Shown one piece after another: positions 25,644-48,354 of a DNA stretch of 49,283 nt. Location of the stretch: positions 84,831 through 134,113 of the forward strand of contig MKRX01000005.1 in the NCBI GenBank assembly GCA_001898035.1. The letters are read 5' to 3'. The notes under the pieces are model-generated. The model saw only the letters and a list, made by a program, of their open reading frames with translations, did not search any database and was not told the origin of the DNA. This DNA comes from Armatimonadetes bacterium 55-13. Lineage in GTDB: Bacteria > Armatimonadota > Fimbriimonadia > Fimbriimonadales > Fimbriimonadaceae. Positions within the stretch are counted from its first letter, which is position 1, and every line of letters begins with the position of its first letter. The position numbers and the translations under genes are program-made.

Positions 25644-26384
25644 TCACTCGGCAGCCACGACGTGCGCCAGGGATTCATTTTCCTGGCGCACGTCTACTTT
25701 GGCCAACTGTCCGTCCCGAATATGGAAGATGCGATCCGAAACATCAAGCATCTTATGGTCATGAGTGGCTGAAATGATTGTTACGCCGCGCTCGGTGTTG
25801 AGTTGTCTCAATAGGTCAATGATTTCCTGTCCTGTCTTGAGATCGAGGTTTCCAGTTGGCTCGTCTGCCAATACAATGCTGGGGTTGTTGGCTAGAGATC
25901 GAGCGATTGCAACGCGTTGTTGCTGTCCACCCGAGAGTTCAGTTGGGCGGTGATGACACCGATGTCCCAGGCCCACGAGTTCGAGCAATTTGATTCCACG
26001 CTCATCCGATTCATCAGGCGAAACGCCGGCGAAGAGCATCGGTAGAGTCACATTTTCCAAGGCTGTTCTGACGGTGATGAGATTAAACGTTTGGAAGATA
26101 TAGCCAATGGTATGGCATCTCAGGAAGGCGAGCTCTCGCGGCGTCAATTGAGCGATGTCCACCGAATTGACATAGACCGATCCTTCGGTGGGTTTATCCA
26201 AACCTCCCACCATATTGAATAGGGTTGACTTACCAGAACCGGAAGGCCCCATGATCGAGAGATATTCGCCCTGATAGATCTCACACGAAACCCCGTTGAG
26301 AGCTCGAACGGCGGCCTCCCCCTCTCCGTACTGCTTGACCAAGTCAACCGTGCGCACGACAACATTTCTTCCTGTTTCCTGCAT
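25644..26384 (-). CDS. ABC transporter ATP-binding protein (LolD/MacB family)
   Basis: At 246 aa it is a single nucleotide-binding domain. Walker A is GPSGSGKST (about 46-54), the Q-loop is FQTFNL, the signature is LSGGQQQR, Walker B is IVLADEPTGNLD, and the switch histidine is in SATHDHK. The sequence groups with LolD/MacB/FtsE-type ATPases that work with FtsX-like permeases, and indeed the preceding gene encodes one (1-base overlap). It is the last gene of the tatA operon. Export of a lipoprotein, peptide or membrane-perturbing compound is possible; the substrate is not known. Confidence 0.93.
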   Translation of the reverse strand: MQETGRNVVVRTVDLVKQYGEGEAAVRALNGVSCEIYQGEYLSIMGPSGSGKSTLFNMVGGLDKPTEGSVYVNSVDIAQLTPRELAFLRCHTIGYIFQTFNLITVRTALENVTLPMLFAGVSPDESDERGIKLLELVGLGHRCHHRPTELSGGQQQRVAIARSLANNPSIVLADEPTGNLDLKTGQEIIDLLRQLNTERGVTIISATHDHKMLDVSDRIFHIRDGQLAKVDVRQENESLAHVVAAE

Positions 26385-32640: not shown

Positions 32641-33024
32641 TTTGCGGAGTTCCTTCCGCCACACAAATCGCAAGCCCGACCAATTTTCGTCGATAGCGCA
32701 AACCTTGTTGTCAACGATTCCCAGGGGCAATCCAACCTCTCTCAAAACGTCCTCCGTTAGCTCAGATTGAATCTTTGAAGACCTTTTGGGCCATGCGATC
32801 CAAAGTCCGCCAGCGGGATGGAGTTGGCTTCTTAGTTGCAGGGCTTCCTCTAACTCTTCTCGGGTCAAGCAAAACGCAACCACAACATTGAAGTCTGAGT
32901 CAGAATTCGTCTGAACTCCGACTTCCCGTAAGAAAGATTCGGGGGCTCGCACAAAATGGATGCGTGAGCCCTCCTTGATTCCTAGCTTTTTGGGAAGCGG
33001 TGTTCCTGAGTATCCAGCGCTCAT
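32638..33024 (-). CDS. DUF3052 family protein
   Basis: A 128-residue protein with the full DUF3052 pattern: AGYSGTPLPKKLGIKEG at the start, a central FCLTREELEEAL segment, GGLWIAWPKRSSKIQSELTEDV, then REVGLPLGIVDNKVCAIDENWSGLRFVWRKE. Family members are small cytosolic proteins of unknown function, widespread in soil bacteria. It is probably cotranscribed with the M32 carboxypeptidase upstream, whose stop overlaps its start by four bases (ATGA). That link suggests no specific role. Confidence 0.9.
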   Translation of the reverse strand: MSAGYSGTPLPKKLGIKEGSRIHFVRAPESFLREVGVQTNSDSDFNVVVAFCLTREELEEALQLRSQLHPAGGLWIAWPKRSSKIQSELTEDVLREVGLPLGIVDNKVCAIDENWSGLRFVWRKELRK

Positions 33025-34523
33025 AGGCCGTAGATATCGCGATATTTGACCGAAAGAATGGAAATGAAGTCCGTGGGTTCCATGGGGCGCCCGGTGACTC
33101 TGGTCACCAGTTCCCGGGGGGTGAATAGTTTGGCCTGATCATAGACCTGCGCTTTGAGCCAGTTGAGCGCACCGCTGAAGTCTCCTGCTTCGAACCTCGA
33201 ATCCAAATCTCCGACTTCACTACTCAGGCATTGCCACATTTGGTAGCTGATGAGGTTGCCCATGGTGTAAGTGGGGAAGTATCCGACCATGCCCCGAGTC
33301 CAGTGAACGTCTTGGATGCAACCGTTGGTGTCGTCGGGCGGGGTAATGCCTAGGTAGTCGGCGTATTTTGAATTCCATGCTTCGGGAAGATCCTTGAGCG
33401 CGGTCTGGCCGGTAAGGATTTCACATTCCAATTCGAATCGGATCAGGATATGGAGGTTGTAGCTCACCTCGTCGGCGCCAACTCGGATGAAGGTTGGTAC
33501 AACTTTGTTAATGGCCCGATACATCGCCTCGGCGTCGAGTCCGGACAACTCCGTAAATGTTGCTTGAAGATCCGGGAGGAAGCGTTTCCAGAATCCTCGA
33601 CTCCTTCCGACGATGTTCTCCCAGAGCCTAGACTGGCTCTCATGAACGGCGAGGGAGATTCCTCCTGGAAGCGGTGTGCCTTCGAAACGCTTGGGCGAGT
33701 TTTGCTCGTAAAGTCCATGGCCCATTTCGTGAAGCGAACTCGAAACGATCCCTTTGATGTGGTCGCTGGGGCGCGTGGTCATGCGAACGTCGTGATGAGC
33801 GAGGTGGGTGCAAAAGGCGTTGTTGGCTACATCCAGCCGTCCGCAAGAAAAGTCAAATCCAACTTGTCCGGCGGCGCGTTCGGCAAATGCCCTGAGCTTT
33901 GGTTTATCCCAATCTCCGTAGAGCATCGAATCGTCAACTTCTCGCCCCCTCTCCTGAATGTCTTTAAGGAGTTGCACGATCGGACCTTTAATCGTATCGA
34001 AGAGCTTCTTGGCATCGGCGTAAGAAGCTCCCTCCTCGAAGAGATCAATGAGAGGATCATAAATGTGATCTTGGTAGCCCAATCGCTCTGCCGTCTCTCG
34101 GTTGATGTCAAACAATTGCTCCAAATAGGGAAGCATTGCTTTGAAATCATTGGCTGGCTTGGCTCGGCGCCAGGTGTCATATGCGTCCGAACCTACTTGA
34201 GCCTTTCGGGCAACGAGTTCGCCGGGCAGCTTCGTTTGCGTCCTCAATTCTCGCCGTAGGACTCTAATCGCCGCCGCTTCCTCAGACCCCGGCGTAACGT
34301 CCCGCGCCGCTTCTTCAACCAATTTTTGAAAAGAGTCCGAGGTTATCTTCTCATGCCGCATTCGCGCCAGAATAGCGACATGCTTTCCGCGGGCGTCGGC
34401 GCCACCCGGAGGCATGAGTACTTGGCGATCCCAGTTAAATAGGGATATCGAGGCATCGATGGCATCGACGTCCCCATAGCGGTCGATGAGTCGTCTATAG
34501 GCTGGAGAGGATTCCTGAATCAT
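33021..34523 (-). CDS. M32-family metallocarboxypeptidase (paralogue 1)
   Basis: A 500-residue carboxypeptidase of the Taq/Pfu M32 family, which removes C-terminal residues using one divalent metal. The zinc site is HEMGH with His265, Glu266 and His269, and the third ligand is Glu295 in HESQSR. Other hallmarks are FNWDRQVLMPPGGADARG near the start and DIRF-type strands followed by PSDHIKGIVSSSLHE. It is leftward and followed by DUF3052 (4-base overlap). Its ATG abuts that of the divergent PQQ-dependent gene (CATATG). A second M32 gene lies 1.7 kb downstream; the two share the HExxH, HESQSR and C-terminal GYFPTY..GNL motifs. Confidence 0.94.
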   Translation of the reverse strand: MIQESSPAYRRLIDRYGDVDAIDASISLFNWDRQVLMPPGGADARGKHVAILARMRHEKITSDSFQKLVEEAARDVTPGSEEAAAIRVLRRELRTQTKLPGELVARKAQVGSDAYDTWRRAKPANDFKAMLPYLEQLFDINRETAERLGYQDHIYDPLIDLFEEGASYADAKKLFDTIKGPIVQLLKDIQERGREVDDSMLYGDWDKPKLRAFAERAAGQVGFDFSCGRLDVANNAFCTHLAHHDVRMTTRPSDHIKGIVSSSLHEMGHGLYEQNSPKRFEGTPLPGGISLAVHESQSRLWENIVGRSRGFWKRFLPDLQATFTELSGLDAEAMYRAINKVVPTFIRVGADEVSYNLHILIRFELECEILTGQTALKDLPEAWNSKYADYLGITPPDDTNGCIQDVHWTRGMVGYFPTYTMGNLISYQMWQCLSSEVGDLDSRFEAGDFSGALNWLKAQVYDQAKLFTPRELVTRVTGRPMEPTDFISILSVKYRDIYGL

Positions 34524-35618: not shown

Positions 35619-36193
35619 CGTAGACGGGCAATCAGGCCCGCTTTAACGGCGGGCCATTCCGCTGGCAAGATCGAGTACATCACGGTATCACGAACATAGC
35701 CGCTGGCGAACGTCATGTGGTTCCGGAGAACTCCCTCTTTCGTTGCGCCTAATTTTTCGATGGCTCTTTGACTTTGCAGATTTCTGGCATCGGTTTTTAG
35801 CTGGACGCGAACTGCGTTCATAGCCTCGAACGCGTGCCCGAGAATGAGCAGCTTACTTTCAGGATTGACTTGCGTTCCGCGATAGTCTCTGCCGTACCAA
35901 GTCATCCCAACCTCCAAGGCGCGATGAGCGGAACGGATATCCAGATAGCAAGTCATGCCCACCGCCCTATTGGTTAACTGATCGAAAACGGTGAAAGGAA
36001 GAACGGTAGGCTGCTCCAGCAGACGTTGGATGTATCCCTCCAGGCCATCCTTATCGTAGCTTGAAGGAGCTCCGGTCACAATGTATTGAAAGGTTTCTTC
36101 GTCGGCAACCCTTGCCAGATCGCTGCCGTGGGTTACATTGGCGGGGACCAGTTTGACGAATCTTCCTTCGAGAGTGACCGGAGCAGCGTTCAT
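35615..36193 (-). CDS. GNAT-family N-acetyltransferase (RimJ/RimL type)
   Basis: A 192-residue acetyltransferase of the RimJ/RimL-like GNAT group that uses acetyl-CoA. The pattern is VTLEGRFVKLVPA, then LDIRSAHRALEVGMTWYGRDYRGT (motif A region, with the Q/R-x-x-G/A-like RGT turn), KTDARNLQSQRAIEKLGATKEG, and a C-terminal RDTVMYSIL. The substrate could be a protein N-terminus or an amine-bearing small molecule. It follows the second M32 gene directly, sharing one base (TAATG), and ends interlocked with the PQQ-dependent gene. Confidence 0.92.
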   Translation of the reverse strand: MNAAPVTLEGRFVKLVPANVTHGSDLARVADEETFQYIVTGAPSSYDKDGLEGYIQRLLEQPTVLPFTVFDQLTNRAVGMTCYLDIRSAHRALEVGMTWYGRDYRGTQVNPESKLLILGHAFEAMNAVRVQLKTDARNLQSQRAIEKLGATKEGVLRNHMTFASGYVRDTVMYSILPAEWPAVKAGLIARLR

Positions 36194-37677
36194 TACAGCC
36201 CGTAGACTTCTCGATACTTGGCGCCGAGCCCCTGGAGGTAGTCGGTAGCTTCCATCGGTTTGCCGGTAACTTGGACGATGAGGTCCTTCGGCTTATGCTT
36301 CTTGCCTTGAGAGTAGACGTTTGCTTGAAGCCACTCCAGCATCGGCTTGAAGTTTCCTGCCGCCATGAGATCTTGGGTGTTGGGGATATCGCGTTCGAGA
36401 GCGTTCCATATCTGATAGCTCAAGAGATTTCCCATCGAATACGTGGGGAAGTAGCCGATGGAGCCCATCGACCAATGGACGTCTTGTAAACATCCCTCGG
36501 AGTCGTTAGGCGGAGTGACCCCCAGATAGTCCGTATACTTGGCGTTCCATACTTCCGGGATGTCCTTCACGGCAAGCGCGCCCGTCAGTACATCGCACTC
36601 GATCTCAAACCGCACCATGGTGTGAAGGTTGTAAGTTAACTCGTCCGCTTCAACTCGAATAAGGCTGGGCTTCACCTTATTGATGGCCTTGTAAAACGTA
36701 TCGAGGTCTTTGCCAGCAATTTGGGGAAAGGCTCTTTGAAGATGGGGAAGGAAGTGCTGCCAGAAGGCGCGACTTCTCCCGACGATGTTCTCCCAGGTTC
36801 GGCTTTGGCTCTCATGAAGGCCATAGGAAACGCCCCCGGCCAGCGGAGTGCGATCCCAAGCTCTTGGGGAACCCTGTTCGTACATGCCGTGCCCCGCCTC
36901 GTGGAGAGATCCGAAGATGGCAGAACCCAAATAGTCTTTGTATCGAGTCGTTAAACGAATATCGCCAACTGACCAGCCGCTGCAGAATGGATGGGGCGCC
37001 GTGTCCTGCCGCCCCCTTTCAAAGTCGAAGCCTATTGCCTGGACGATTTCCTCGGTAAAGCGACTTTGGGCGAGGATGTCCCAGTCTCCATAAAGCCAAG
37101 AATCGTCGGTCTCCGGGAGTTCCTGGATCTGTTTAACCAGTTCCACTTGAGGACCTCGAATCGCGTCATACATGGCCTGAGCGTCCGCAGTATTGGAACC
37201 TTCCTCGTACTGGTCGAGCAGCGCGTCATAGACATGATCCGTGTAGCCAAGGAAATCGGCCTCTTGCTTCGCAATCTCGAACATTCGCTCCAAGATGGGC
37301 GCGAAGCTCTTGAAATCGTTAGTAGCGCGCGCTTTCACCCACTCTTCGTGGGCAAGGGCGGACAACTTTGATTTTTCTTCCACCAAACTCGAAGGGAACT
37401 TGGTGGCGAGATCGAGCTCTCGCCCAACGACCCGCAAGAGGGCCGCATCGTCGGATTCTGGGGTGGCTTCCGTCTTGGCCTTTTCGAGCAAGTTACGGGT
37501 TTCGTCTGCAGTCAAGAGCTCGTGGTGCATTCTGCTGAGTCGACCGACGTGTTCACCACGAGCGTCGGCCCCTCCCCTTGGCATGTAAGTCTGCTGGTCC
37601 CAATCCATGATTGCAACAGCGGAACCAAGGGCATTGAGGTCATATAGGCGCGATTTGAGCGCATCTAGGGAGGACAT
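36193..37677 (-). CDS. M32-family metallocarboxypeptidase (paralogue 2)
   Basis: From ATG 37677 the protein is 494 aa. The zinc site is HEAGH (His259, Glu260, His263) with Glu289 in HESQSR. Hallmarks are MDWDQQTYMPRGGADARG and GYFPTYSMGNLLSYQ, close to paralogue 1 but with a different N-terminus (MSSLDALKSRL). The frame continues 17 codons to 37728, but that stretch lies over a terminator stem and has no ribosome site. It is followed by the GNAT gene in the same transcript. It is probably an older duplication product. Confidence 0.93.
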   Translation of the reverse strand: MSSLDALKSRLYDLNALGSAVAIMDWDQQTYMPRGGADARGEHVGRLSRMHHELLTADETRNLLEKAKTEATPESDDAALLRVVGRELDLATKFPSSLVEEKSKLSALAHEEWVKARATNDFKSFAPILERMFEIAKQEADFLGYTDHVYDALLDQYEEGSNTADAQAMYDAIRGPQVELVKQIQELPETDDSWLYGDWDILAQSRFTEEIVQAIGFDFERGRQDTAPHPFCSGWSVGDIRLTTRYKDYLGSAIFGSLHEAGHGMYEQGSPRAWDRTPLAGGVSYGLHESQSRTWENIVGRSRAFWQHFLPHLQRAFPQIAGKDLDTFYKAINKVKPSLIRVEADELTYNLHTMVRFEIECDVLTGALAVKDIPEVWNAKYTDYLGVTPPNDSEGCLQDVHWSMGSIGYFPTYSMGNLLSYQIWNALERDIPNTQDLMAAGNFKPMLEWLQANVYSQGKKHKPKDLIVQVTGKPMEATDYLQGLGAKYREVYGL

Positions 37678-37699
37678 GGTAAGCAGGATTCTACCGCTC

Positions 37700-37736
37700 A
37701 AAAAAAGGAACCTTGGGTGTTTCTTCACCCAAGGTT
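37700..37736 (-). terminator. Rho-independent terminator of the PEP-CTERM gene
   Basis: AACCTTGGGTG (37709-37719) and CACCCAAGGTT (37726-37736) make a perfect 11-bp stem with a 6-base loop. Reading leftward, the stem is followed by CC and a run of seven T (A run at 37700-37706 on +). It terminates the PEP-CTERM gene just ahead of the M32 start at 37677. Confidence 0.9.
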
Positions 37737-37761
37737 CAATGCATCGTCGAATAACCCCTTT

Positions 37762-39162: not shown

Positions 39163-39170
39163 AAATTTTT
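39163..39170. repeat. Left copy of 8-bp target site duplication
   Basis: AAATTTTT immediately before the left terminal repeat. It is identical to the eight bases immediately after the right repeat (42180-42187). IS1-family insertion characteristically duplicates 8-9 bp. Confidence 0.85.
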
Positions 39171-39195
39171 GGTAGTGGGTCAGTTTGAAACTTAA
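39171..39195 (+). repeat. Left terminal inverted repeat of the transposon
   Basis: Begins GGTAGTGGGTCAGTTTGA and ends AAACTTAA. The transposase stop codon (39192-39194, minus strand) is inside it. It differs from the right repeat at one position (A instead of G at the 19th base). Confidence 0.9.
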
Positions 39196-40037
39196 TTTTC
39201 TTGAGTCTGGCGATCCAAAAGACCTATCATGTCCTCAACTGTCCAGATGTGGTCGGCAACTCCAGCGGCTACGGCGGGTGTCGTCTTGAGGGTCTGGTGC
39301 TTTCGGCAGAAGTTGTAGTACATGAAGTGAAGGGCAATGGCCGCCTCATGGTTTTCGATCTTCTTAGAGAAAGCGTTGGTGAGTCTCGTGAATCGCCGCA
39401 TGCTCATTCGCATCGTTAAGTTCTGCCGCTCCACGAACGAAGTAGAGATGTGGGATTCCGCTGGGGTTCCAGTGATCGGTTTCTTTTCTGCTCCAATACA
39501 GGCGGCGGGGCTATAGCGTCCGGTATCCGTAGGGCCGGGGCCGTAGAGCTTGACCAGCATCGCATAGTCAATATCGTTCTCGCCAAAAGCCCACGAGACC
39601 GCTTTTAGATATGCCTTGTGTCCGTCGGTCGTAAGTTGAACCTTCGAACTCAATCGCTCTGCCAGGTCATTCATGAACAGGTGAGCAGAGACCGCATCAC
39701 GCTTTGCGACGAACCAAGAAACGATTAGCTTGGTATCGGCATCAAGAGCCGTCCAAGTCCAAACATCCCCATAGCCCCATTCTCCTTGCTTGTCTTCAGG
39801 GACGTTCTTTTCCTTGGAGTAGCAGAAGGACCAAATCTCATCGCATTGAATCCTCTCGCACTTGAGATTGCGCATGACCTGGTTCTGATATTCAGCGCAA
39901 GCACTACCAATATCCACGAGCAGTTTTACGACCGTGTTCTTTGCTGCGCCGGTCATACGAACAGTTGAACGGATCGAATTACCCTCCACCAAGCAGCGAA
40001 CTACTTGCGATCTTCGTTCAGTGTTCATCTGATTCAT
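39192..40037 (-). CDS. IS1-family-like DDE transposase
   Basis: From ATG 40037 the protein is 281 aa (ATG 40028 also possible; the frame extends 28 more codons into the control region). An N-terminal helix-turn-helix (NSIRSTVRMTGAAKNTVVKLL, read as two parts) is followed by the catalytic core. The DDE triad is Asp66 in QCDEIW, Asp138 in TTDGHKAY, and Glu203 in SFVERQNL. The ERQNLTMRMSMRRFTRLTNAFSK block is like the ERHNLNLRQHLARL..SFSKS block of IS1. The reading frame is intact. It is transcribed toward the left end, divergent from the passenger operon. Confidence 0.92.
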   Translation of the reverse strand: MNQMNTERRSQVVRCLVEGNSIRSTVRMTGAAKNTVVKLLVDIGSACAEYQNQVMRNLKCERIQCDEIWSFCYSKEKNVPEDKQGEWGYGDVWTWTALDADTKLIVSWFVAKRDAVSAHLFMNDLAERLSSKVQLTTDGHKAYLKAVSWAFGENDIDYAMLVKLYGPGPTDTGRYSPAACIGAEKKPITGTPAESHISTSFVERQNLTMRMSMRRFTRLTNAFSKKIENHEAAIALHFMYYNFCRKHQTLKTTPAVAAGVADHIWTVEDMIGLLDRQTQEN

Positions 40038-40038
40038 A

Positions 40039-40072
40039 ATGACTAGTATACTTGAGCCAAGTATGATTCCAA
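40039..40072. promoter_or_regulatory. Divergent promoters for transposase and passenger operon (predicted)
   Basis: Leftward, TTGGAA (-35; + strand 40067-40072) and TATACT (-10; 40045-40050) are 16 bases apart, serving the transposase. Rightward, ATGACT (-35; 40039-40044) and TATGAT (-10; 40062-40067) are 17 bases apart, serving the 222-aa gene. Matches to the sigma70 consensus are 4/6 and 5/6 in each case. They overlap each other and the palindrome, so one bound protein could control both. Confidence 0.45.
40048..40064. promoter_or_regulatory. Perfect 17-bp palindrome, candidate operator
   Basis: ATACTTG-AGC-CAAGTAT, with 7-bp perfect arms. It lies between or overlapping the -35 and -10 boxes of both predicted divergent promoters. 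The natural candidate to bind it is the XRE domain encoded in the passenger operon, or the transposase's own helix-turn-helix. Confidence 0.55.
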
Positions 40073-40098
40073 CAAAATACATGCTTTTTTTGTTGGAA
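40067..40098. promoter_or_regulatory. 11-bp-arm inverted repeat ahead of the first passenger gene
   Basis: TTCCAACAAAA (40067-40077) and TTTTGTTGGAA (40088-40098) are perfect inverted copies with a 10-base spacer. The right arm ends five bases before ATG 40104 and includes GGAA, the only ribosome-site-like sequence there. If transcribed, the hairpin would hide it and limit translation. As DNA it could be a second operator. Confidence 0.55.
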
Positions 40099-40103
40099 AT
40101 GCT

Positions 40104-40772
40104 ATGATCAGCATTATGCACACGAATGAGTTAAATGTTGCTCAGATAATCACTGCCTTGACTCCCTTTGCCGAGAAAGCCAAGGAGGTCCTTCCCCAGC
40201 CCATGATGGTCAGACTATTCAAGTGGATCGACGGGAATAGATCCTGTGCAGCTGCGGCCCTTAGATCCGAGTGTCAGACGCACCTTTCTGACATAACTTT
40301 GCTAACAGGAAGAGTGAAAAAGGTCTCCAAGGCTCCTGATGGACGTCGCCCAGGAAATACGACGTGGATAATCGTGCCCACTTTAGCAGGTGTCTTTGGT
40401 GTGATCGTTCGAAACGTAGTCAAACATGGCGATAAGGAGTATCGATTTTTGTCTGACACATCCGCAGAAATTTCAAGTCACTTAACCGAACGGCTGATAG
40501 ACGTACCTGAACCTGTAAATGTCCAAGATATTGTAGTCGGAATTGAAAGGGCAAGGAAAACCAGTACCCGTATGGAGAGCTTAGCTGTTAAAATTCTAAT
40601 TGGTAATATTGATCATGCAAGTAAAAAGATACGAGTTGAAGATGAGATCCCCATTTTCAATGAAGGACTGACGGACAGAGATATTGAAGGTATCCTCATC
40701 AACAGGGAACAAGCCACACACAAGTCTCCAGATGTGCCGGTTAAAAAAAAGGGAACCCGCCCTAAAGCATGA
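40104..40772 (+). CDS. Transposon passenger: unknown 222-aa protein coupled to ImmA/IrrE gene
   Basis: I do not recognise this protein. It is 222 aa from ATG 40104 (ATG 40116 is an alternative). No signal peptide, membrane segment or classical catalytic motif is visible. The segments PGNTTWIIVPTLAGVFGVIVR and later VNVQDIVVGIERARKTS suggest an alpha/beta core. The tail is lysine- and arginine-rich (KKKGTRPKA). Base use is visibly more AT-rich than in the flanking chromosomal genes. Its stop overlaps the next gene's start (ATGA). Pairing with an XRE-ImmA/IrrE gene suggests it is the partner, toxin or regulated factor, but that is inference. Confidence 0.7.
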   Translation: MISIMHTNELNVAQIITALTPFAEKAKEVLPQPMMVRLFKWIDGNRSCAAAALRSECQTHLSDITLLTGRVKKVSKAPDGRRPGNTTWIIVPTLAGVFGVIVRNVVKHGDKEYRFLSDTSAEISSHLTERLIDVPEPVNVQDIVVGIERARKTSTRMESLAVKILIGNIDHASKKIRVEDEIPIFNEGLTDRDIEGILINREQATHKSPDVPVKKKGTRPKA

Positions 40773-41872
40773 GTTTGATAGAGTTAGATCCAAAGCACAT
40801 TGCATCTCGAATCCAAATAGCTCGCTCTTGGATGGGGAAAAGTGCGCCTGAAGTGGCGGCGCAATTAAATATTGCCCCATCTACTTACAGGGGGTACGAA
40901 AGCGGACTATCTATTAACGACAGTGTCCTAGAACAGATTGCCGCCATTTTAAATGTTCCTGTCAAATTTTTCCAAATGGGACCTCTTTCGCTGATTCCAT
41001 CTGGAGAGTTGAGCTTTCGAAAGAGGGTTAGGCTTAAGTCTCCTTTTGTCATGCATGTTAGGGCCGTAAGTTCTTTTCTTTCAGATTTAGTGATTGAGCA
41101 AGAGCGTCTGCTAGATCTACCGAAAGTAAAAGTGCCCTATGCTAGGGCTTCAGGGATAGTCGAAATAGAGGATATCGTTAAGAATATCCGGAACGATTTG
41201 TCAATTGTCGATGCGCCGCTAAAGAGTGCATTGGACTTAGTAGAATCGCTAGGAGTTTCAGTATTTTGGGTTACTTCTGATCCTGATTTTGACGCAGTAA
41301 GCTTTTGGTCTGAAGACAGGCCCTATATTTTGATCAACGAGACTCACAAAGACGGTTATCGTGTTAGATTTTCAGTACTACATGAATTAGGCCATTTGGT
41401 TTTGCATAGACACTCCAATGCTACTGATACTTATGAAGATGATGCTGTCAGGCTCGAAAGGGATGCAAATGCTTTTGCGTCTGCAATGTTGATGCCAGCA
41501 ATTCCATTTACATACCGTTTTTCTACACATTGGGGCTTGATGGATATCTTTGAAGAGAGAGTGCACTGGAGGGCATCCTGCGCAGCAATTGTTAGGCGCG
41601 CTAGAGATTTAAAGATAATTTCCGAGGAAAGATATCGCCAACTTTACATCGGCATTTCTACAAAGGGTTGGCGTAAACGTGAACCAGGTGCACCAAATCA
41701 GGAAGAGTCTAGGGTCCATAGGTTCTTTTTCGACGAGGCGGGCGAGATAGGACTAACAACTGACCAAATTGCTAATCAAGCAGGATCCCCAATTTCATGG
41801 ATCTATGAGACGATGCCAATTTCACGGCAGTACTTATCGAATTACGATTTAGACTTTCCCCAACGTTTTTGA
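40769..41872 (+). CDS. Transposon passenger: XRE-type HTH plus ImmA/IrrE metallopeptidase
   Basis: A 367-residue protein. Residues about 10-66 form an XRE helix-turn-helix (IARSWMGKSAPEVAAQLNIA, then PSTYRGYESGL). Residues about 185-245 are an ImmA/IrrE (COG2856) zinc peptidase: HELGH with His205, Glu206 and His209, and the downstream ERDANAFASAMLMP with Glu230. The C-terminal 120 residues are extra. ImmA cleaves phage-type repressors and IrrE the DNA-damage repressor DdrO; fused XRE-COG2856 proteins also act as antitoxin-like regulators. Its likely targets are its operon partner or a repressor of the element. Low-GC codon use points to foreign origin. Confidence 0.9.
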   Translation: MSLIELDPKHIASRIQIARSWMGKSAPEVAAQLNIAPSTYRGYESGLSINDSVLEQIAAILNVPVKFFQMGPLSLIPSGELSFRKRVRLKSPFVMHVRAVSSFLSDLVIEQERLLDLPKVKVPYARASGIVEIEDIVKNIRNDLSIVDAPLKSALDLVESLGVSVFWVTSDPDFDAVSFWSEDRPYILINETHKDGYRVRFSVLHELGHLVLHRHSNATDTYEDDAVRLERDANAFASAMLMPAIPFTYRFSTHWGLMDIFEERVHWRASCAAIVRRARDLKIISEERYRQLYIGISTKGWRKREPGAPNQEESRVHRFFFDEAGEIGLTTDQIANQAGSPISWIYETMPISRQYLSNYDLDFPQRF

Positions 41873-42084
41873 GCTGCCTTCTTTGCGATCTCTTTCCTTT
41901 GCTCGGGCGTTAATGATGCCGCCCGAGCTTTCCCACCTTTTAGCCCGCCTTTGCGCCCGAGCGACACGGCGGCGGGATCTTTTCCATCATCGTTCTTCGG
42001 AGCCTCTTCTGTGGCTTCTTGAAGGACTCTGAAGGCGATTTCGTTCAAATCATCGGGTCCTTGTTTCTTTGGCATCTCTTCCAT
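41842..42084 (-). CDS. Transposon passenger: small KGG-type basic protein
   Basis: An 80-residue protein from ATG 42084 (42075 is the alternative; the frame opens at a TTG 42108). The C-terminal half is SLGRKGGLKGGKARAASLTP, then EQRKEIAKKAAQKRWGK, a highly basic, Gly/Lys-rich pattern found in many small unassigned bacterial proteins and likely to bind nucleic acid. The N-terminal half is acidic (DDLNEIAFRVLQEATEEAP). It is convergent with the ImmA/IrrE gene, overlapping its end by 31 bases. TATAAT (minus strand, just before 42084) could be its -10 box, but the -35-like TTGACC is only 14 bases further. Confidence 0.7.
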   Translation of the reverse strand: MEEMPKKQGPDDLNEIAFRVLQEATEEAPKNDDGKDPAAVSLGRKGGLKGGKARAASLTPEQRKEIAKKAAQKRWGKSKS

Positions 42085-42154
42085 TATACGACGTGCGTGA
42101 GCGGTCAAGCATGCGATAAATGCGGGACCAGCGACTTATCAGATCTTGAGTTTT

Positions 42155-42179
42155 TTAAGTCTCAAACTGACCCACTACC
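42155..42179 (-). repeat. Right terminal inverted repeat of the transposon
   Basis: Reverse complement reads GGTAGTGGGTCAGTTTGA then GACTTAA, matching the left repeat at 24 of 25 positions. Confidence 0.9.
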
Positions 42180-42187
42180 AAATTTTT
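42180..42187. repeat. Right copy of 8-bp target site duplication
   Basis: AAATTTTT, identical to 39163-39170. Removing the element and one copy would restore an AT-rich spacer ending 46 bases before the DUF2089 start codon. Confidence 0.85.
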
Positions 42188-42233: not shown

Positions 42234-42638
42234 ATGGGTGAACGGAAAATCAAAAGACTGCTGGTTGATGACCCCATCACTGGCGAAGAGTTGGTGATAA
42301 CCGAACTTGCGGGAGAGGCATCCGGAATTACGATACGTGGCCGATTCGAGATTCCCCGCTACGCAAAGCTCTCGGAGGAGAATGAGCATTTTTTGGAGAC
42401 GTTTCTCCGTTGCCGAGGAATGATCAACAGCGTGGAACGGGAACTCGGAATTAGCTATCCCACCGTTAAGTCCAGATTGGACGCTCTGCTTCAGGCGCTG
42501 GACTTGACTCCGATCAAGGAAGAAACGGCCAAGAAAGAGAAGTCGGCGGAAAAGAAGGCAAAGATTTTGGAGCAGTTGGAAAAGGGCGAAATCACGGCTG
42601 AGCAGGCAAAGGCGAAGTTGAAAGGCGGGGCAAAGTGA
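42234..42638 (+). CDS. DUF2089 family protein with helix-turn-helix
   Basis: A 134-residue protein of the DUF2089 family. A short start (KRLLVDDPITGEELVITEL) replaces the usual zinc-ribbon. The conserved core follows: RFEIPRYAKLSEENEHFLETFL, then RCRGMINSVERELGISYPTV and KSRLDALLQAL, a helix-turn-helix that should bind DNA. The C-terminal third is a lysine/glutamate-rich coiled tail (EEQLEKGEITAEQAKAKL type). There is no ribosome site before ATG 42234, and TAGAAT lies at 42222-42227, so the mRNA may be leaderless. It overlaps the DUF4097 gene (GTGA). The two are a common regulator/effector pair with an envelope-stress role that is not established. Confidence 0.88.
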   Translation: MGERKIKRLLVDDPITGEELVITELAGEASGITIRGRFEIPRYAKLSEENEHFLETFLRCRGMINSVERELGISYPTVKSRLDALLQALDLTPIKEETAKKEKSAEKKAKILEQLEKGEITAEQAKAKLKGGAK

Positions 42639-44458: not shown

Positions 44459-45697
44459 ATGCGAAGATGCGCAATCATAGCCTTGGTTTTACTCTCGGCA
44501 ATCGTTCATTGTCAGGATCTTGTAATTGTTGGCGGACGAGTTGAGGTCGGCAACGGCAAGGTCCTCGAGAACGGAGTCATCGTGGTTCGCGATGGGAAGA
44601 TCGCGGAAATCGGTTCCAAATTGCCCGTTCCAGTGGGGATGAATTCCTTAGATGCGAAGGGAATGACCATCTACCCGGGATTCATCAACGGTTATTCGAC
44701 CAAAAGCCTGAAACTGCCCGATGCGCCGTCCGCTGCTACGCCGCCCTCGACTCTTAGTGTTGCTCCCCCAACCATGTGGCAGGGAAATCGCAAGGGAATT
44801 CGAGCTCAACTTAAGACAGCTGAATGTCTCGATCTCAAGGTCTTCATGTCAGACGCTCACAAAGCGGGATTCACCGCCTCGTATCTGGCGCCTGGAGGAG
44901 GATTGATTCGCGGTACCGGAGCTCTAGCCTATTGGACCGACGAAAAGTTTGATGCCCACCCGTTCGGAATGGAAATGAGTTTTAGAAACGCGGGAGGGCA
45001 GGGGTACCCAGGGACTCTTCTGGGCGCCGTGGCGCTTTTGCGGCAGACTCTTTACGATGCCCAGCGCTACGGAAAGCTCTCGAAGCCAGAAAAGGATGCC
45101 GACTACGACGGGCTACAGCCTGTACTCAGGGCAGAGACTTCGGCGGTGTTCGCCGCCGACTCTGAAGCAGATATCCAGCGCGCGTTAAAGATTGGCGATG
45201 AGTTCGGATTTCCGGTGGTCATTCAGGGATCTCGTGATGCTTACAAGAGAGGAAAAATGCTGGCTGACAAAAAGGTTCCGGTCATCGTGGACTGTGCGAT
45301 CGGAGATGAGCCGTCCGTGAAGACATCTCCAGACGGTCCTCCTGTCGCCGTCCTCGAAGAACGGCGCGATCAGTGGAAAGAAAGAGCTCTCAATGTCATT
45401 GAACTTCAAAAGGCAGGAGTTCTCTTTGCCTTCTCGGCAGAGAGGGATGGTTGGAGCGATTATTTGAAGGACGTTCGAGCCTTGATTGGTCTGGGTCTTT
45501 CGAAGTCCGCAGCACTTAGAGCGATGACTTCCGCTCCTGCCGAAATCTTTGGTGTCGCCAGGGAGGTCGGGACCTTAGAGAAAGGAAAAGTCGCGAACCT
45601 GGTGTTGATGAACGGCGACTTCGCCGACGCAAAGTCCGAAGTTCAAAGCGTCGTTGTGCTCGGCAAAGTGTTCGAATACAAAAAGGAGGCGAAGTGA
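44459..45697 (+). CDS. Exported amidohydrolase-like protein lacking the HxH metal motif
   Basis: A 412-residue protein with a signal peptide (MRRCAIIALVLLSAIVHC, cut before QDL). It has the small beta-sandwich start of imidazolonepropionase-like amidohydrolases (LVIVGGRVEVGNGKVLENGVIVV, IYPGFINGYS) and the matching end (GTLEKGKVANLVLMNGD). Active enzymes read GFVDAHxH where this has GFINGYSTK, so the two metal-binding histidines are absent. Other histidine sites are also missing. It therefore probably does not hydrolyse. AGGAG precedes the ATG. Its end is coupled to the next gene, whose C-terminal half it resembles. Confidence 0.85.
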   Translation: MRRCAIIALVLLSAIVHCQDLVIVGGRVEVGNGKVLENGVIVVRDGKIAEIGSKLPVPVGMNSLDAKGMTIYPGFINGYSTKSLKLPDAPSAATPPSTLSVAPPTMWQGNRKGIRAQLKTAECLDLKVFMSDAHKAGFTASYLAPGGGLIRGTGALAYWTDEKFDAHPFGMEMSFRNAGGQGYPGTLLGAVALLRQTLYDAQRYGKLSKPEKDADYDGLQPVLRAETSAVFAADSEADIQRALKIGDEFGFPVVIQGSRDAYKRGKMLADKKVPVIVDCAIGDEPSVKTSPDGPPVAVLEERRDQWKERALNVIELQKAGVLFAFSAERDGWSDYLKDVRALIGLGLSKSAALRAMTSAPAEIFGVAREVGTLEKGKVANLVLMNGDFADAKSEVQSVVVLGKVFEYKKEAK

Positions 45698-48354
45698 TGC
45701 GCCGGTTTGCCCTATTGGCTCTTCTCATCGTAAGCGTTTCTCATTCCCAAGATTTGCCATTTGAAACGGAGGCCATGCGAAAACCCCAAATCCACACCGG
45801 AGGAAGCGTTCTTATCAAAGGTGGCCGGATACTGACCGTGACCAAGGGAATCTTGGAATCCGGCGACATCTTGATTCGGAACGGAAAGATTGTCGCCATC
45901 GGACCGAAAATCGACGCCCCCAAAGGGACTATCGTGATCGATGCCAAGGGAAAAGTGGTCACACCGGGAATCGTGGACGCCCATATCCACCGGGGAATCA
46001 TGGCGACCAATGAGGGTTCCGACAGTATCGTTGCCGAAGTTCGAATCGAAGACGTGTTAAATCCGGATTCCAAGAACTTGTGGCAAGCTCTTTCTGGCGG
46101 AGAAACCACGGGAATGGCCCTGCACGGAAGCGCGAATTGCGTAGGGGGGCAGAGCACCGTTATTAAGCTCAAGTACGCCCGGCCAGTCGAAGAATTGCCC
46201 GTCCCCGATGCCCCGCGCATGATCAAGTTCGCGTTGGGTGAAAACGTGACCCGATCCGGTTCCGATACCTCTAATAGATTTCCCAAGACGAGAATGGGAC
46301 AAGAAGCGGTTTACCGGCGCGCATTTACGGAAGCGAGGCAATACATTTCCGAGTGGGACGGATGGGAGAGGAGAGGTAAGAAGGGAGACCCTCCACGTAA
46401 GGACCTGCGGCTTGAGGCGCTGGCCGATATTTTGCGCGGCAAGATTTGGGTTCAATGCCACAGCTATCGAGCCGACGAGATGCTGATGATGGTCCGTCTT
46501 AGCCAAGAATTTGGATTCAAGATAGGCGCCCTCCAGCACGCACTGGAAGCCTATAAAATTGCTCCCGAACTGGCAAAAGCCGGAATCGGAGTGTCGACAT
46601 TTGCCGATAGTTGGTCTTTCAAAGTCGAAGGTTACGACGCCATTCCTTACAATGCGATGATTTGCCAGCAGGCGGGAGTCAACATTTCCGTTAATACGGA
46701 TGGACTCTCCGGGATGCCGTCGATTGCGATCGATGCCGCCAAAACAATGCGCTATGGCGGGGCTACCGAAGGTCAGGCGATGGCGATGTTGACGATCAAT
46801 CCTGCTCGTTCATTGGGTGTGGACAAACGCACGGGGAGCCTTGAGGTCGGTAAAGACGGCGATATCGCTATTTGGGATGGACATCCTCTAAGCGTCTACT
46901 CAAAGTGCGCGATGACCCTGATTGAAGGCGAAGTCTACTTCCAGCGACGCGATGCATTCGGAATTGACCCAACATCCGTGACAAAGAATGTCTTGGACAC
47001 GAATCGACATACCGAACCTTTGAAGGTCGATCTAACTGGAAAGAGGTATGCCGTCATTGGCGCGACGATTCATCCCGTGAGCGGACCGGTCATTGAGGGG
47101 GGAACGGTCTTGTTGGAAGATGGGAAGATCAAACAGGTGGGCACGAATGTGCCTATCCCCCGAGACGCCCTGACAAAGGTGATTGACGGAAAAGGACTTC
47201 ATGTCTATCCCGGCTTCATCGATGCCGGCAACTCCATTGGACTATCCGAAATTTCGCCTATTGGCCAGATGAACGACAATTCGGAGTTAGGTGGCTATCA
47301 GCCAGATTTGGTGGCAGGTACCGCAGTGCAGGTCCAAAGCGAGCACCTGCCAGTCGCCCGAATGGGAGGAGTGCTTACCTCGCTGACTCGGCCCACCGGC
47401 GGGACCATTTGTGGTCAGGCGAGCGCGATTGAGAACTTCGGCTGGACGACGGAACAGATGTCTCTTGGCAATCGCATGCTCGTCATCAATTTCCCCGGAG
47501 CGGGAACTGGCTTTGGATTCGATGCAAGTCTAGCTTGTTGCGATGTGGATCTCTTGCGAGGCGAATACAACCCGCCTATCGAGCAAGAACACGATCATGA
47601 CCATCAAGACGAGCTTGGCGGAGCCCAAAGGCGAGGCGGAGGCGGCGGTGGCTCTGCCGACGATCTTGATGACTACTTTAAGAAAGCAGCTGCTTATCTC
47701 AAGAAGCGTACGGACGATCCCAAAAGCGAAATCGACCTCTCGATGGAAGCTATGATCCCCTATCTCCAGGGAAGGGCCTCGGTGCTGCTGCGTGTTCGCA
47801 GTGCGTCTTCCATTCGAAACGCCGTCGCTTTCGCGGAGAAATATCACCTCAAGGTCGTTCTCGCCGGGGCATACGACGCGTGGAAAGAAGCGAAGCTTTT
47901 GGCTGAGAAGAAGATTCCGGTCATCATTAACCCAGCGGGGAAGAGCACGCTTTCTGCGAACTCACCAGCCAATGATTGGGACCCGTATGACACGACCTTT
48001 GTTCTTCCGGCCCTCTTGAAGAAAGCGGGAGTCCAGTTCTGCTTCCAGACGGAAGATAACTCAGACGCCTTCAATTTGCCGGTGAAGGTTGGTGAATCCT
48101 GTGCGTACGGGATTTCTCAGGAAGATGCCCTGCGATCTATCACCTTATCTGCCGCGGAGATACTGGGATTGGCAGACAGACTGGGCTCGATCGATGCTGG
48201 CAAGATTGGCAATTTGGTCATTACCGATGGTGATCCATTTGAACTGACCACCAACGTGGTCGGCATTTTTGCCAACGGAAAGCCGTTATCGCTTGATTCA
48301 AAGTTCACGCGCATGCGGGATCAGTGGATCAAGCGTCTTCAGGAGGCCAATTAG
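45697..48354 (+). CDS. Exported fusion of two amidohydrolase-like domains
   Basis: An 885-residue protein starting at ATG 45697, with AGGAGG seven bases before it; a GTG at 45694 is less likely. A signal peptide ends near VSHSQ. The first domain (about 30-440) has an intact metal site start, VDAHIH (His96, His98), and a later histidine region (QCHSYRADEM). The second (about 450-880) has the same overall plan but DAGNSIG instead of DAHxH, so it is probably inactive. Between or within the second lies HDHDH followed by a glycine run (about 630-655), possibly metal-binding. Such proteins are imidazolonepropionase-like. It overlaps the upstream gene by one base. Confidence 0.88.
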   Translation: MRRFALLALLIVSVSHSQDLPFETEAMRKPQIHTGGSVLIKGGRILTVTKGILESGDILIRNGKIVAIGPKIDAPKGTIVIDAKGKVVTPGIVDAHIHRGIMATNEGSDSIVAEVRIEDVLNPDSKNLWQALSGGETTGMALHGSANCVGGQSTVIKLKYARPVEELPVPDAPRMIKFALGENVTRSGSDTSNRFPKTRMGQEAVYRRAFTEARQYISEWDGWERRGKKGDPPRKDLRLEALADILRGKIWVQCHSYRADEMLMMVRLSQEFGFKIGALQHALEAYKIAPELAKAGIGVSTFADSWSFKVEGYDAIPYNAMICQQAGVNISVNTDGLSGMPSIAIDAAKTMRYGGATEGQAMAMLTINPARSLGVDKRTGSLEVGKDGDIAIWDGHPLSVYSKCAMTLIEGEVYFQRRDAFGIDPTSVTKNVLDTNRHTEPLKVDLTGKRYAVIGATIHPVSGPVIEGGTVLLEDGKIKQVGTNVPIPRDALTKVIDGKGLHVYPGFIDAGNSIGLSEISPIGQMNDNSELGGYQPDLVAGTAVQVQSEHLPVARMGGVLTSLTRPTGGTICGQASAIENFGWTTEQMSLGNRMLVINFPGAGTGFGFDASLACCDVDLLRGEYNPPIEQEHDHDHQDELGGAQRRGGGGGGSADDLDDYFKKAAAYLKKRTDDPKSEIDLSMEAMIPYLQGRASVLLRVRSASSIRNAVAFAEKYHLKVVLAGAYDAWKEAKLLAEKKIPVIINPAGKSTLSANSPANDWDPYDTTFVLPALLKKAGVQFCFQTEDNSDAFNLPVKVGESCAYGISQEDALRSITLSAAEILGLADRLGSIDAGKIGNLVITDGDPFELTTNVVGIFANGKPLSLDSKFTRMRDQWIKRLQEAN

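Follow-up and report, generated by a model that had tools for sequence, protein, structure and literature searches.

A stretch of control DNA between the transposase gene and the cargo of a small transposon in Armatimonadetes bacterium 55-13 is probably the junction of two separate control modules, one serving the transposon core (module A) and the other the cargo (module B). The window, i.e., the whole stretch of DNA analyzed, comprises 49,283 nt of contig MKRX01000005.1 (assembly GCA_001898035.1, forward-strand positions 84,831–134,113), and all coordinates given below are positions within it.

The transposon spans 39171–42179 (3009 bp), as delimited from the sequence and its inverted repeats (IRs). 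The terminal IRs are 25 bp long with one mismatch (left, plus strand, GGTAGTGGGTCAGTTTGAAACTTAA, 39171–39195, shared with many relatives; right, minus strand, 42155–42179), and the 8-bp direct repeat AAATTTTT flanks the element on either side (39163–39170 and 42180–42187), within the 8–9 bp range of target duplications in the IS1 family. Only one copy is present in the 4.5-Mb genome. The transposase gene (minus strand) is located at one end and a second core gene, p88 (minus strand), at the other, with two plus-strand cargo genes between them. The transposase, a single ORF of 281 aa (39192–40037, minus strand), scores 26.7 bits against the IS1 DDE domain model PF03400, exceeding the cut-off of 24.1, and 52.1 bits against the NCBIfam IS1 model NF033558, under its cut-off of 100; its relatives are annotated as ‘IS1 family transposase’. 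Because this ORF is uninterrupted, lacking the programmed insA/insB' frameshift of classical IS1, the element is best filed as an IS1-family variant. Elsewhere in the window, perfect inverted repeats with arms of 13 and 12 bp, exceeding those of the 11-bp repeat described below, are found at 25659–25694 and 37708–37737, and two pairs of neighboring genes look similar by eye, one metallocarboxypeptidase-like (33021–34523 and 36193–37728) and one amidohydrolase-like (44459–45697 and 45694–48354).

Scanning GTDB genomes identified 352 relatives of the transposase, 80 of which were retrieved; this set and relatives from the phylum supplied 87 usable transposase upstream regions, or 88 with the window. 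A quick tree of the transposases spans at least 15 named phyla, with some well-supported small clades mixing phyla, a pattern behind which MAG binning errors are possible. The IR GGTAGTGGGTCAGTTTGAA is common to many loci. About 70 of the examined loci showed homology to p88, mostly on the transposase strand and next to the far IR, and the cargo between p88 and the transposase amounts to ~0.4–3.9 kb. Named plasmids of Hoeflea and Mesorhizobium have the same layout, which in Mesorhizobium reads as a gene annotated ‘histone H1’, a pair of cargo genes, and a gene annotated ‘IS1 family transposase’.

The core module is marked by the palindrome ATACTTG-AGC-CAAGTAT (40048–40064), which is perfect, as the first-pass annotation had described, and occupies the spacer and -10 box of the transposase promoter. 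It overlaps the minus-strand -10 box (TATACT, 40050–40045), with the -35 box TTGGAA at 40067–40072 (minus strand), and lies inside a promoter-like match on the plus strand (40039–40067), in agreement with the overlap predicted earlier for both directions. Taken alone, the palindrome is not unusual, since the window holds 26 perfect 7-bp-arm repeats with loops of up to 8 nt versus 25.1 in shuffles (P = 0.11 per 200 bp of local composition). We judge it real because of its conservation in relatives from many phyla and not from window statistics. In these relatives, the transposase promoter takes the form TTGACA - ATGCTTGA-N4-TCAAG - TATAAT - 7 nt - ATG, and a dyad resembling ATGCTTGA-N4-TCAAGCAT (score of at least 11/16) is found upstream of the transposase at 73 of 88 loci versus 3% of shuffles, which here and for p88 below preserved base composition only. 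The loop measures 4 nt in 57 of the 73. The window carries a variant of this family operator, shorter than the family form. At two loci (L027 and L029), much larger dyads surround the transposase start (AATGATTAGTATGCTT...AAGTATACTAATCATT in L029), apparently an extended operator form. The core of the IR, GGTCAGT, recurs at positions -7 to -1 of the transposase (at least 6/7 matching bases at 23 of 88 loci) and, at some loci, inverted near -51, upstream of the dyad.

Its sequence conservation marks the palindrome as a genuine site belonging to the transposon core, most likely an operator. It is quite unlikely that it is instead a by-product of promoter constraints and the common ancestry of transposase promoters, with no operator involved. 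Such a reading fits a palindrome that by itself does not exceed chance, and the formal covariation is weak: paired arm changes do occur (e.g., ATGCGTGA/TCACGCAT and ATGCATGA/TCATGCAT), with both arms changing in step in L095, L116, and L031, but compensatory changes are few (per-pair P of 0.03–0.09 at four of eight pairs and none at the other four), making covariation across all dyad pairs suggestive. However, spacer positions free of promoter constraint are conserved in relatives, and the same dyad stands at the unrelated p88 promoter, where its position relative to the promoter boxes differs from that at the transposase.

The p88 gene (41842–42075, minus strand; homologues in relatives) encodes a KGGKARA-containing, histone-H1-like protein of 77 aa that begins with MPKKQ, and the gene at the same position on the Mesorhizobium plasmid is the one annotated as ‘histone H1’. 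The protein matched none of the curated Pfam or NCBIfam families; its predicted fold (four helices, pLDDT 79, pTM 0.36) has no match in the PDB and therefore names no regulator. The p88 promoter (42083–42112, minus strand) consists of the operator ATGCTTGA-CCGC-TCACGCAC (42112–42093) and the -10 box TATAAT (42088–42083). A dyad scoring at least 12/16 is found upstream of p88 at 20 of 69 loci versus 1% in shuffles, a strong operator thus being a minority feature there. Operator scores at the transposase and p88 correlate (r = 0.28, P = 0.02), and any excess similarity of operator variants within an element over those of different elements is not clear-cut (P = 0.096). The operator is retained in two elements where no p88 was found (L080 and L092). 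Membership of the operator in a host regulon was considered and is unsupported, because the only match with up to one mismatch in the 4.5-Mb host genome is the p88 site itself.

Because the same operator precedes both core genes, in the window as in relatives, the control couples the transposase to p88 and not to the cargo. The first-pass annotation had taken the palindrome as part of a possible joint switch for transposase and cargo, a role that is not supported: the site also occurs in elements whose cargo is unrelated or lies on the opposite strand, and its second copy in this element is at p88. In module A as we picture it, a leaderless sigma-70-type promoter would transcribe the transposase from behind a dyad operator placed in its spacer and -10 box, and a single DNA-binding protein would repress both core genes. 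That this regulator is encoded by the element is probable, given that the same operator precedes each gene; a core-encoded protein binding the common dyad is the simplest reading, and the candidates would be p88 and the transposase, the latter binding through its N-terminal HTH in the manner of InsA. In IS1, the transposase promoter overlaps the left IR and is repressed by the element’s own DNA-binding protein (PMC12428005). By this analogy, the recurrence of the IR core at the transposase start and, inverted at some loci, upstream of the dyad favors the transposase as one candidate binder. The likeness to InsA/InsAB' autorepression lies in the common transposase family and in this IR-core recurrence, to be set beside the promoter overlap in IS1. 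In contrast to IS1, the element has one ORF with no insA/insB frameshift arrangement, the cargo of its relatives measures ~0.4–3.9 kb, and it adds a second core gene, a dyad operator distinct from the IR, and a leaderless geometry.

The leaderless geometry is common to both modules. The -10 box stands exactly 7 nt ahead of an ATG in the transposase (40035–40050, minus strand; ATG at 40037–40035), in p88, and in the first cargo gene, whose extended -10 box TGcTATGAT (40100–40108) is followed by the ATG at 40116 (40100–40118, plus strand); all three genes therefore look leaderless. Among relatives, the -10-to-ATG spacing peaks at 6–7 nt for the transposase and at 6 nt for p88, and Shine–Dalgarno (SD)-like bases precede only 5 of 55 p88 genes and 13 of 88 transposase genes; p88 in the window has a GGAAGAG before its ATG that could double as a weak SD. 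Across 392 kb of host sequence, a -10-like box lies 5–8 nt before the first ATG in ~16% of genes, a figure summed over four positions, versus ~1.5% of internal ATGs. Gene starts in these comparisons were called crudely. Beside the element, a DUF2089 gene (42234–42638) has a -10-like TAGAAT 6 nt before its ATG and is for this reason possibly leaderless too. At five loci (L042, L057, L065, L112, and L118), the transposase ATG is farther from the -10 box, and in some of them the extra leader holds SD-like bases, which may reflect a change from leaderless to leadered starts.

The cargo looks like a toxin–antitoxin (TA)-like pair resembling RosmerTA. The second cargo gene (40769–41872, plus strand) encodes an XRE-HTH domain joined to an ImmA/IrrE (M78) protease with its HELGH motif present (HTH_3, Peptidase_M78); the protein matches the PADLOC model of RmrA, the RosmerTA antitoxin, at 2.6e-61, and the spr1629 antitoxin family at 5.4e-32, though under the family cut-off. 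The first gene (40116–40772, plus strand), joined to it by an ATGA overlap, encodes a 218-aa orphan protein. This protein has no relatives in 291 genomes of the phylum or in GTDB contigs, matches no Pfam or PADLOC family, yields no usable fold from its single sequence (pLDDT 37), and has no homology to the partner proteins of two RmrA-bearing elements (L065 and L154). RosmerTA (RmrT/RmrA) is a phage-defense toxin–antitoxin system in a group whose toxins are diverse (PMC10440598). The likeness consists of an RmrA-like XRE and M78 protease protein beside an unrelated partner gene for ~200 aa, and in many of the relatives checked an unrelated ORF of ~200–226 aa precedes the RmrA-like gene. The pair differs from RosmerTA in that its 218-aa partner, a candidate toxin, has no detectable relatives.

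Just upstream of the cargo lies a second inverted repeat, TTCCAACAAAA-N10-TTTTGTTGGAA (40067–40077/40088–40098), likewise perfect as described earlier, with a 10-nt spacer and arm centers 21 bp apart, or two helical turns. Its left arm contains the transposase -35 box, and its right end adjoins the cargo -10 box. The 5-nt distance reported between the repeat and the passenger start is correct when measured to the ATG at 40104; a better cargo start is the ATG found in the same frame at 40116. Three repeats with arms of at least 11 bp and loops of up to 20 nt occur in the window versus 0.37 expected, and none arose in 1000 local shuffles, so this repeat is not a product of chance. No other copy of the 11-bp repeat was found in 85 family genomes, and it is private to this cargo. 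A comparable repeat lies ~40–46 nt before the partner gene of an RmrA cargo in L080 (0/60 shuffles) and, more weakly, in L154 (p = 0.07). Considering its position, these two analogous repeats, and the RosmerTA-like cargo, our best guess is that the 11-bp repeat is an autoregulatory operator for the RmrA-like antitoxin. Module B would then comprise a leaderless extended -10 promoter and the 11-bp repeat, at which the XRE domain of the antitoxin would, most likely, repress its own operon.

The first-pass annotation had proposed that the repeat acts in RNA, as a hairpin limiting cargo translation; a related proposal is that it shields the cargo from read-through transcription. As RNA, the repeat folds at -10.9 kcal/mol (z = -4.5), and with respect to the ATG at 40104 the GGAA of its right arm resembles an SD. 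However, the best cargo -10 box is found on the 3' side of the repeat, 7 nt ahead of the ATG, and transcripts from the alternative plus-strand promoter would begin near 40074, within the left arm, so neither candidate transcript could form the full hairpin, which would exist only on read-through RNA. Since the leaderless geometry would place the repeat upstream of the cargo transcript and renders an SD unnecessary, a hairpin masking the ribosome site is unlikely, and we regard an RNA role in either form as very improbable; control of the cargo by the repeat probably acts at the level of DNA.

Another reading is joint control through DNA. In the form put forward in the first-pass annotation, a single cargo regulator, the XRE-ImmA protein, would bind both repeats and silence transposition and cargo together; we think this unlikely. 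Both repeats fall inside 51 bp, and the 11-bp repeat lies over the transposase -35 box and ends beside the cargo -10 box. Against it, the two repeats have no sequence in common, the palindrome accompanies p88 and unrelated cargo, and cargo orientation varies: in 36 elements the largest cargo ORF points away from the transposase, and in 25 the two run in the same direction, so the family as a whole does not keep to a divergent control region. A switch common to transposase and cargo is conceivable chiefly via the 11-bp repeat, where a cargo regulator protein could dampen both promoters. In the two-module arrangement that we prefer, cargo repression might also dampen transposition in this copy, because the module B repeat covers the transposase -35 box.

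In relatives L026–L119, anti-phage or toxin–antitoxin genes often appear to occupy the space between p88 and the transposase. Among 75 cargo ORFs compared with PADLOC, Pfam, and NCBIfam models, matches were obtained to PD-Lambda-2_B (6), RmrA (at least 4), and HigA (6), as raw counts; the PD-Lambda-2_B and HigA counts probably overlap, as one protein (L044:2463-3560) matched both. Single matches include BstA, SoFic, IetA, type IIG restriction enzymes, MazF, and VapC. Passenger-bearing IS elements similarly have compact ends and a transposase, with the passenger genes inside; the element described here differs in that its cargo lies between two conserved core genes with a common operator and is often defense- or TA-like. 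Among the papers searched, we found no description of IS1-family elements with defense cargo, which is not proof of novelty.

It is an evenly balanced proposition that these transposons constitute an IS1-derived family, spread over at least 15 phyla, that carries swappable anti-phage or TA modules and has both core genes leaderless under one element-encoded operator. If true, expression of the core genes would be independent of SD use by the host, which would explain how a single element can be expressed across hosts whose translation signals differ greatly. The second core gene traveling with the transposase, p88, now has a name, and a precise candidate operator is defined for testing. This small transposon architecture would be a possible carrier of defense genes between distant phyla.
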